A model generated the notes under the pieces. That model worked only from the letters and a program-made list of their open reading frames with translations, made no database searches and was not told the origin of the DNA. This document shows positions 17,912 to 28,317 of a DNA stretch of 46,029 nt, piece by piece. Made by a program: the position numbers and the translations under genes. Source of the DNA: Lentisphaerae bacterium GWF2_49_21 (lineage in GTDB: Bacteria > Verrucomicrobiota > Lentisphaeria > Victivallales > GWF2-50-93); assembly GCA_001804805.1 (NCBI GenBank), contig MHBH01000010.1:1-46029 (forward strand). Direction: 5' to 3'. Within the stretch, counting starts at the first letter, position 1. Each line of letters opens with the position of its first letter.

Positions 17912-18272
17912 GAGTAGCGCAGGCATTCCTGCCTGCAGCTCTTTTCTGGCAGTAGGGCGGGTTTCAACCCGCCAACTTGCTTATAAGGAGCGCCGGCGTC
18001 TCGCCGGCAATTGATTTCTTATAATGTAGTACAGGCGTCCCGCCTGTTTCTTCTCGGGCAGGAATGCCCGAGTTACTTTCTTGATGTAGAGTTCGCTGTC
18101 TCAGCGAAGAAAAGAATGTGGCATAGGCGTCCCGCCTGTGATTTTCTTGTTGAAATATACTTCTACACAGGCGAGACGCCTGTACTACATTATAAACAGG
18201 CTGGAAAGCCTGTCCTACATTATAGGAAAGCCTGTGCTACATTATAAACAGGCTGGAAAGCCTGTCCTACTT
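17912..18272. repeat. Dense array of about ten divergent palindromes
   Basis: Within 360 bases I count about ten imperfect palindromes: gcaggcattcctgcctgc, ggcgggtttcaacccgcc, gccggcgtctcgccggc, acaggcgtcccgcctgt, ctcgggcaggaatgcccgag, ttcgctgtctcagcgaa, ataggcgtcccgcctgt, acaggcgagacgcctgt and acaggctggaaagcctgt (twice, with a truncated unit between). Flanks reuse the words gtagtac and tacattat. It fills the divergent spacer between the isomerase gene and the radical SAM gene. Spacing is irregular and arms differ, so it is not CRISPR. Extragenic palindromes or structured-RNA units are the best description. Confidence 0.85.
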
Positions 18273-26042: not shown

Positions 26043-26067
26043 ATAAAATTTTCTCTGAAAATCTTAT
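26043..26067 (-). other. Hairpin filling the moxR-DUF58 junction
   Basis: ATAAAATTTTC (26043-26053) and GAAAATCTTAT (26057-26067) form an 11-position stem with one mismatch and a 3-base loop. On the mRNA it begins in the moxR stop codon and ends immediately before the DUF58 ATG, covering the place where a ribosome-binding site would lie. Confidence 0.65.
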
Positions 26068-27086
26068 GGCGTCCTTAACTCGTCGAGGATCCTGCGGACG
26101 ATTTCATTTGTAGTTATCTGTTCCGCTTCGGCCTCGTAGGAAATTATTATCCTGTGCCTTAGGATATCGGCGGCGATATCCTTCACATCCTGCGGAACGA
26201 CATATGCACGGCCCCCCATGAATGCGGCGGCCTTTGCGGCGACAGTCATCATGATCGCGGCACGTGGTGATGCGCCATATTGAATATAGTTGTCGAGATA
26301 GTCAAGCTTTGCTTCAGCCTGGCGCTGTGAGAGTTCCTTCCTCTTCTTGGGACGTGTCGCGATGGTGATGTCGAGGATGTATTCCACGATCTTCTCGTCG
26401 ATGTATATCTTGTCAACCCATTCCCTGGCTTTTTTGATGTCATCCAGGGTGGCTACAGAAAGCGCGTTGAGGACCAGTGCGGGATGAGCCATCCTGTTCA
26501 CGATGTCCCTTTCCTCGTTCCTCGAGGGATATTCGAGCTCGAGCTTGAACATGAAGCGGTCGACCTGGGCTTCAGGCAGGGAGTAGGTGCCTTCGTGTTC
26601 GATTGGATTCTGAGTGGCCATCACCAGGAAGGGCAGGGGCATCTCGAGCTTCTTTCCAGCGATCGTCACCTGTTTTTCCTGCATGCACTCCAGAAGCGCG
26701 CTCTGGACCTTGGCGGGGGCGCGGTTGATCTCGTCAGCCAGTACAATGTTTGCAAAGACCGGGCCTATCTTTACGCTGAACGTGTGGTCCTGCTGGTTAT
26801 AGATGTTGGTTCCGATAAGGTCTGCAGGAAGAAGGTCGGGAGTGAACTGTATCCTTGAAAATGTTCCGTTCAGACACTGGGATAGGGTTTTGACTGCAAG
26901 CGTTTTTGCCAGCCCGGGCAATCCTTCAATTAAGATATGACCGTCGGCGATCAGCGCCAGAATCAGGCTGTTGACGAGTTTTTCCTGCCCGACGATTATC
27001 TTCCCTATTTCCGTCTTGACCGGCTGGATGAAATGTGATACTTCACGGATCTTGTCCTGGAGCTCCTGCAGTTCATTCTGGTTCAT
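26064..27086 (-). CDS. moxR: MoxR-family AAA+ ATPase
   Basis: A 340-residue MoxR-type AAA+ ATPase, thought to act as a chaperone for assembly or maturation of VWA-domain complexes. Walker A is GLPGLAKT at residues 55-62, Walker B is in ANIVLADEINRAPAKVQSALL, and sensor I is VMATQNPIEHEGTYSLPEAQ. The C-terminal lid domain (GASPRAAIMM) is typical. AGGAG lies 8 bases before the ATG. It heads a four-gene minus-strand operon with DUF58, DUF4381-like and VWA genes. The region upstream is a structured segment that may end the previous transcript. Confidence 0.94.
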   Translation of the reverse strand: MNQNELQELQDKIREVSHFIQPVKTEIGKIIVGQEKLVNSLILALIADGHILIEGLPGLAKTLAVKTLSQCLNGTFSRIQFTPDLLPADLIGTNIYNQQDHTFSVKIGPVFANIVLADEINRAPAKVQSALLECMQEKQVTIAGKKLEMPLPFLVMATQNPIEHEGTYSLPEAQVDRFMFKLELEYPSRNEERDIVNRMAHPALVLNALSVATLDDIKKAREWVDKIYIDEKIVEYILDITIATRPKKRKELSQRQAEAKLDYLDNYIQYGASPRAAIMMTVAAKAAAFMGGRAYVVPQDVKDIAADILRHRIIISYEAEAEQITTNEIVRRILDELRTP

Positions 27087-27123
27087 GATAAATCTCCTGT
27101 CTGATTATTTATTGATTTCGTTT

Positions 27124-27151
27124 AATCCTGGAAATCCTGTTATCCTGTCCA
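27124..27151. repeat. aatcctgttatcctgtcc repeat word
   Basis: taatcctggaaatcctgtta followed by tcctgtcc is a periodic string of the aatcctg(t/g) word; a fragment ttatcctgtc also occurs near 2098-2107. It lies between the structured segment and the moxR ribosome-binding site. Confidence 0.55.
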
Positions 27152-27164
27152 ATCTGCCCATATT

Positions 27165-27267
27165 TAAAAACTGAGCGGCGGGTTATCTATTTTGAGGGGG
27201 TCAAAATGAACGTCTGATGACGTTGGTGTCATGATAACCCGGCCGCTCTATAATCATTAGACACCAA
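27165..27267 (-). ncRNA. Branched structured segment with minus-strand T-run
   Basis: An outer stem (27173-27187 with 27233-27248, one bulged base) encloses two perfect hairpins: ATTTTGA/TCAAAAT (27189-27195, 27201-27207, G5 loop) and AACGTC/GACGTT (27209-27214, 27219-27224, TGAT loop). TTGGTGTC (27223-27230) can pair instead with GACACCAA (27260-27267), an alternative fold. On the minus strand the outer stem is followed by AGTTTTT, like an intrinsic terminator. It lies between the pyrK-like stop and moxR. It may be an elaborate terminator, a small RNA, or the end of a degraded insertion sequence. Only the pairing is seen; the RNA class is not recognised. Confidence 0.4.
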
Positions 27268-27290
27268 TGAATCCTAAAAGTTCACTGCTT

Positions 27291-27394
27291 ATAGCCCTTT
27301 CTTTCAGACCAGTTACAACCCGCAGATAAATTATGTGCAAAATTATGATAACCTTAGTCAGAGCTGGTCGGGGAAGTGTGCAAGAAAGGGCTAT
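27291..27394 (-). other. Long-range 13-bp inverted repeat downstream of the pyrK-like gene
   Basis: ATAGCCCTTTCTT (27291-27303) and AAGAAAGGGCTAT (27382-27394) pair perfectly, and inside them GACCAG (27307-27312) pairs with CTGGTC (27364-27369). The 3' edge is 2 bases from the pyrK-like stop codon. With the adjacent branched segment it makes about 230 bases of nearly continuous potential structure. Confidence 0.5.
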
Positions 27395-27396
27395 GT

Positions 27397-28182
27397 TTAT
27401 TCGTAATAAATGGCGGTTGCAGGAAAAACCGGCCCCTCCTTGCAGGTTCTGGCGAAACGCCAGCCGTCGGTCTTTGTCTCATCCTTGACTTTCACTACGC
27501 ACGCATAGCACGCACCGATGCCGCAGCACATAAGATGGTCGAGGCTGAGCTCGCCGGAGAGGGTGTTTTTCAGCAGTATCCTCCCCATCGCCATCAGCAT
27601 TCCATGAGGGCCGCATCCGTAGAAGCTCATGCTCTTGGAAGGCGGATCCTTGATGATCTCATCAAGAAGCTTCGTGACAAAGCCTTTCTTCCCTTCCGAA
27701 CCGTCTTCCGTGGCGACCAGCACTTCAAATCCAGTCCTCTTGAATTCATCAACAAGGATCAGGTCCGAGGAAGTCCTGGCACCGATGAGTATTCTTCCCT
27801 TTGTCGGAGATTGTTTTGCAAGCATATATGTGGCGGCGGAACCGTAGCCGCCTGCGACTATTATTGGCAGCTGGTTTTTCTTCGGGACATTGAACGGTTT
27901 GCCCTGCGGTCCCATGAGGCTGCATTCGGTCCCTTTTGCGAGCTTGGAGAGGACGGCAGTCCCTTCTCCTATTACTTTGTATATTACAGTAAGCTCCCCC
28001 TTGGCGGTTGCATCGCAGATGCTGAATGGACGACGCAGGATCCTGTCGCGAAGATTGGCGATCTGGACATGGACAAACTGGCCGGGTTTCACCTTCGGGC
28101 ATATTTCAGGTGCCTTGAAGACAATCCTGTAGTAGTCTCCGCCTATGCATTCGTTTTTGATGATCGGGCAGTTTTCAAGCAT
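27397..28182 (-). CDS. pyrK: Dihydroorotate dehydrogenase electron-transfer subunit-like flavoprotein
   Basis: A 261-residue protein of the PyrK family. An FAD-binding ferredoxin-reductase barrel (PGQFVHVQI, then RRPFSICDA) is followed by an NAD-binding domain (IIVAGGYGSAATYMLA). A C-terminal 2Fe-2S motif with C-x4-C-x2-C (CGIGACYAC) and a later Cys is intact. PyrK passes electrons from the catalytic PyrD subunit to NAD in pyrimidine synthesis. No pyrD is present here, so the assignment rests on sequence. The start at 28182 has TGGAGA 6 bases upstream; the longer frame would translate an inverted-repeat element. Confidence 0.82.
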   Translation of the reverse strand: MLENCPIIKNECIGGDYYRIVFKAPEICPKVKPGQFVHVQIANLRDRILRRPFSICDATAKGELTVIYKVIGEGTAVLSKLAKGTECSLMGPQGKPFNVPKKNQLPIIVAGGYGSAATYMLAKQSPTKGRILIGARTSSDLILVDEFKRTGFEVLVATEDGSEGKKGFVTKLLDEIIKDPPSKSMSFYGCGPHGMLMAMGRILLKNTLSGELSLDHLMCCGIGACYACVVKVKDETKTDGWRFARTCKEGPVFPATAIYYE

Positions 28183-28206
28183 TAGTTCTCCAGTGAAAGA
28201 TTGAAT

Positions 28207-28317
28207 GAATGTCCAATATCCAACAAGGAATTTCCAATTTCCATTTGAATACCGTCTGGATTTTTCACAGTGTTTGACTTCGTCATTGGACATTCCTTGT
28301 TCATTATTGGATATTCG
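28207..28317. repeat. 111-bp inverted-repeat (MITE-like) element, copy 2
   Basis: The reverse complement of the right arm (28277-28317) matches the left arm of copy 1 (1915-1955) at 38 of 41 positions. The other arm (28207 onward, GAATGTCCAATATCCAACAA) pairs imperfectly with it. It occupies most of the spacer between the nitroreductase and pyrK-like genes, in opposite orientation to copy 1. Confidence 0.65.

Follow-up and report, generated by a model that had tools for sequence, protein, structure and literature searches.

The window analysed here, 46,029 nucleotides long, is contig 10 of the 5.9 Mb assembly of Lentisphaerae bacterium GWF2_49_21 (genome G000), whose congeners include Lentisphaerae bacterium GWF2_50_93 (G001) and two further genomes (G002 and G003). 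The minus-strand gene order is nitroreductase, pyrK-like (27397-28293), moxR (26064-27086), DUF58, an unnamed protein and BatA/VWA. The moxR gene encodes a MoxR-type AAA+ ATPase (Pfam AAA_3 and AAA_lid_2) and is the first gene of a moxR-DUF58-unnamed-BatA/VWA operon, separated from the pyrK-like gene by a spacer of 310 bp. MoxR/Bat operons are widespread, and to our knowledge little is known about their regulation. Within the spacer, a preliminary description of the sequence had marked out 230 bases (27165-27394) as branched, alternative RNA structure. When compared with 200 dinucleotide shuffles, this block gave a better fold than all of them (200/200), with z-scores of -4.5 on the plus strand and -5.9 on the minus strand; the predicted moxR leader by itself gave a z-score of -4.5, and its homologue in G001 one of -5.1.

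Comparison of the two species divided the block. The folds described earlier are two unrelated things, and the real element, which we refer to as Y, lies on the minus strand at 27173-27248 and is followed by a run of five U residues. Y and the T-run are conserved in G001, unlike the alternative pairing of 8 bp and the long-range stem described alongside them. Y is a three-way junction closed by a 15-bp outer stem, P1, with the U5 run immediately after it. The 5′ strand of P1 (GAGCGGC-c-GGGTTATC; 27233-27248, minus) and its 3′ strand (27173-27187, minus) pair as 27173-27187 with 27233-27240 and 27242-27248, leaving 27241 as a single bulged base, and the outer stem around two perfect hairpins is thus present as it had been described. 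The junction segment J1/2 (ATGACACC; 27225-27232, minus) is identical in the aligned G000 and G001 sequences. It is followed by hairpin P2 (AACGTC-ATCA-GACGTT; 27209-27224, minus) and hairpin P3 (ATTTTGA-CCCCC-TCAAAAT; 27189-27207, minus), the same two hairpins that on the plus strand read AACGTC-TGAT-GACGTT and ATTTTGA-GGGGG-TCAAAAT. The minus-strand T-run that had been placed at the end of the block (T5, 27170-27166) corresponds to the U5 run (GUUUUUAA; 27166-27170, minus), which lies directly 3′ of P1, gives Y a terminator-like 3′ edge and is conserved in G001.

The other two folds were put aside. The 8-bp pairing TTGGTGTC/GACACCAA can be formed (27223-27230 with 27260-27267), but its proposed role as a fold competing with the hairpins did not hold up, as it is not conserved, being reduced in G001 to 4 bp (GACA/TGTC), and it was rejected because TTGGTGTC overlaps the -10 box of the promoter described below and so lies outside the predicted transcript. 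The long-range stem also exists, with arms of 19 nt (27291-27309 and 27376-27394) that are 89% complementary, and forms a 104-base hairpin (27291-27394) beginning directly after the pyrK stop codon. It was set aside as species-specific, since it is absent from G001 and has no U-run, and a search for other copies returned none with a convincing score.

Immediately upstream of Y lies the sequence GAACTTTT-N13-GTCTA, which is exact in both G000 and G001 and resembles a promoter of the ECF-sigma type, with GAACTTTT as the -35 element (27276-27283, minus) and GTCTA as the -10 element (27258-27262, minus). Y starts about 10 nt downstream of the -10 box. From the usual distance between a -10 box and a start site, transcription would be expected to begin at about 27252-27249, which would place the start of P1 no more than a few bases into the RNA. 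With the promoter directly upstream, Y is predicted to form the 5′ end of a moxR-DUF58-BatA mRNA under stress control. The pattern GAAC[AT]TT-N14-17-GTC[AT]A was then sought within 200 nt upstream of moxR in 30 relatives, and it was found in 18 of them, against an average of 0.015 for shuffled upstream regions. In G001, the sole other exact match to the promoter directly precedes a gene for an ECF sigma factor, for which the best NCBIfam match is RpoE, with a score below the model cut-off. Orthologues of this sigma gene in G000, G002 and G003 have the same promoter with small variations, making four congeneric genomes with G001. The -35 box of the moxR promoter agrees with the RpoE -35 box of E. 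coli (GGAACTT; PMC8103513). Thus, in its GGAACTT-like -35 and TCTRA-like -10 elements, their fixed spacing and its occurrence before the sigma gene as well, the putative moxR promoter has the characters of an RpoE-type ECF promoter, and its presence before moxR across the order and before an RpoE-like sigma gene defines a candidate regulon. Elsewhere in the window genome, another exact ECF-type promoter (G000:C39:130586) precedes a gene for a secreted-looking protein of unknown function, which is a possible further member. A separate observation concerns the sigma gene, the first ATG of which comes two bases after the -10 box (GTCTATAATGG in three congeners and the similar GTCTAAAATGG in G002), and this suggests either that the message lacks a leader or that the start is wrongly placed. 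A search of the literature found no paper tying moxR to a riboswitch or tying moxR to its ECF-type promoter.

A DNA search of 60 relatives gave one strong match, to G001, which covered Y and the T-run (query 78-177, 83% identity) and lay in the same synteny, pyrK-[Y]-moxR. Beyond Y and the promoter the two spacers barely align, whereas the Y region, taken from shortly upstream of P1 as far as the U-run, is identical in 74 of 90 columns (82%). For moxR itself, the same two genomes are identical at 53% of third codon positions and 39% of fourfold sites; the identity of Y therefore exceeds that of these moxR positions (p about 6e-9 when 74/90 is tested against 0.53), indicating that the nucleotide sequence of Y is strongly constrained. 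Fourteen substitutions fall in the Y columns, seven of them at paired sites, and all 26 of 26 pairs are kept, an outcome reached in 0.3% of trials when seven substitutions were placed at random. The outer part of P1 changes from GAGCGGC/GCCGCTC in G000 to GAGTGAC/GTCACTC in G001, which amounts to two fully compensatory pairs, and three more pairs change one-sidedly to G-U or U-G forms, with none broken; P1 taken alone shows two compensatory changes, a further two that are one-sided and consistent, and no broken pair. Sliding the partners by one to three columns lowered pairing to 33-52%, and a column-shuffle control (127/500) is uninformative with two sequences. P2 in G001 has a GAAA loop and a U-G closing pair, and one pair near its foot, which belongs to the window fold and is outside the consensus, becomes C/U and is lost there. 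The stem of P3 and its C5 loop are invariant, apart from a single extra U in the loop of G001, as is the single-stranded junction sequence AUGACACC. The probability of P1 pairing is near 1 in the full leaders of both species. The covariation check with a homologous spacer thus came out in favour of the structure, although, because two sequences are all that is known, the covariation is limited to two compensatory pairs, and the compensatory substitutions in the Y helices give modest evidence for a cis-regulatory structured RNA.

Y has a narrow distribution. A covariance model (R1) built from the two sequences was searched against the phylum (388 genomes), the order (137) and the family (all 8), and recovered the two founders only, the larger searches having used stricter filters that may miss diverged copies. 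An exact-core pattern gave a single match, GWF2_50_93, among 84,980 named genomes, and in each genome that carries Y it is single-copy. A search of Rfam (4227 models) gave no match to Y at the gathering cut-off or at a relaxed one, the weak hits being at chance level, and collections of phages, plasmids and viral contigs gave none. G002, from the same genus, has the promoter and a leader of about 34 nt but not Y, and so Y, which is fixed in position before moxR in G000 and G001, is not essential to the control of moxR in the genus, and either arose in the lineage of G000 and G001 or disappeared from G002. An apparent match in G002 to 27321-27360 was rejected as unrelated sequence elsewhere in that genome. 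Six genomes of another family have longer moxR leaders, and these yielded no clean common fold. Y is a real, constrained leader RNA of limited distribution that was previously uncatalogued (absent from Rfam 15).

Taken with its place between the ECF-type promoter and moxR, these results support the earlier suggestion of a structured moxR leader or small RNA, and the minus-strand element at 27173-27248 is very probably a structured leader RNA of moxR. Transcribed by an RpoE-like, autoregulated sigma factor, it would make up the initial ~80 nt of the moxR-DUF58-BatA mRNA. At this 5′ end Y might protect the moxR message from decay, and stem P1 with the U-run might act as a leaky attenuator that lets through only part of the polymerases. 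We favour a cis-acting leader of this kind, which tunes the output of the stress operon through protection of the 5′ end, partial termination or both, with a confidence that is about evenly balanced. P1 and the GUUUUU that follows it are conserved; the interior of P1, at 46 nt and branched, is unlike that of a textbook terminator, and P1-U5 was left unflagged by a simple terminator scan, which takes loops of 3-8 only. A terminated product of ~90 nt, with its C5 loop exposed, could be a small RNA that arises as a natural by-product.

A different emphasis would make Y chiefly a small RNA that acts in trans within the ECF regulon, ~90 nt long and ending at the U-run, with moxR expressed by read-through and the CCCCC loop pairing with G-rich ribosome-binding sites. 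We consider this possible but rather doubtful, both as a whole and for the proposed loop targets. Small-RNA genes share this arrangement of promoter, compact fold and U-run, both the C5 loop and single-stranded AUGACACC are invariant, and there are precedents: E. coli RpoE drives small RNAs including MicA and RybB (PMC8103513), and the malK 5′ UTR of Vibrio yields the small RNA Vsr217, which is required in cis and acts in trans (PMC8265627). MicA and RybB share with Y an ECF-sigma promoter with a GAACTT -35 and a short structured RNA with a U-run, but they are stand-alone RNA genes, whereas Y belongs to the leader of an operon that codes for proteins, in another phylum. Vsr217 is similar in having a regulated promoter and being a 5′-UTR RNA with a U-rich end before an ATPase gene; its promoter, however, depends on MalT and that of Y is of the ECF type, and Vsr217 was shown by experiment while Y is known from sequence, with no homology established between them. 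The shortness of U5 and the restriction of Y to two genomes also speak against a mainly trans-acting RNA. A dual-purpose leader under ECF-sigma control, tuning the MoxR/Bat operon in cis and releasing a C-loop small RNA, is a tentative proposal that we rate marginally lower still; if true, it would be an unrecorded class of RNA and an RNA arm of the Lentisphaerae envelope-stress response.

The three-way junction, in which invariant unpaired segments lie beside covarying helices, also recalls a riboswitch or protein-binding leader, where a ligand or protein at the junction (AUGACACC) and the C5 loop would alter termination at P1-U5. The P1-P2-P3 layout with conserved unpaired segments is likewise that of three-way-junction metabolite riboswitches (purine, TPP), but Y differs from these in having no Rfam match, a far more stable P1, no conserved alternative expression platform and an occurrence in two species only. 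Since P1, a very stable closing stem, forms with a probability near 1 in both leaders without ligand, and no conserved helix that would compete with it came to light (the one proposed earlier lies over the promoter and is missing in the homologue), we regard a ligand riboswitch, and with it the earlier riboswitch-like reading, as improbable. Lower again stands a translation-coupled attenuator, in which ribosomes would open the stem by reading a short frame from the AUG in the junction through P2, P3 and P1. The AUG is conserved and the frame, of 22 codons in the window, ends at the U-run, but it has 16 codons in G001, where the loop insertion shifts it, no Shine-Dalgarno sequence precedes the AUG, and substitutions are spread evenly over the codon positions (2/2/2). 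Because the frame is not conserved and the changes favour no codon position, a leader peptide from this AUG is very unlikely. Least probable of all, and barely to be entertained, is that Y derives from a decayed mobile element or insertion-sequence end, or else serves as a DNA operator built from inverted repeats. The inverted repeats are indeed perfect, and palindromes of the form TTTTGA-N-TCAAAA recur in the genome, but with different centres. The idea of insertion-sequence remains, of IS21 type or other, also raised in the preliminary description, is at odds with the single copy per genome and the empty searches of phage, plasmid and viral-contig collections, and an operator is made unlikely by the spacing of the half-sites, 5 in one species and 6 in the other, and by the compensation in P1, which suits a paired strand. 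As a side observation, the palindromes TTTTGAGCTGATTTCAAAA and TTTTGAAAGCTCAAAA recur in both G000 and G001 in several copies per genome (e.g. G000:C4:11565-11583), with centres unrelated to P3.

For a group that has received little study, the locus offers a concrete regulatory connection open to test: a putatively autoregulated RpoE-like sigma factor, a moxR promoter conserved across the order and, in one lineage, an RNA structure set exactly between this promoter and the gene. The promoter is the more general result and the Y RNA a narrow addition to it.

The interval between Y and moxR contains, within the leader, a copy of a dispersed genomic repeat, AATCCTGGAAATCCTGTTATCCTGTC (27121-27155, minus), which is not in the moxR leader of G001. 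This repeat has ~45 matches in the window genome and recurs in several further genomes from the same genus, family and order. Short direct and inverted repeats (e.g. ACAGGCGAGACGCCTGT) form intergenic clusters in the window at 2474-2647, 18019-18270 and 28206-28317, and the repeat GAATGTCCAATATTCAACAAGGAATGTCC is found at 1915-2025 and again at 28206-28317.
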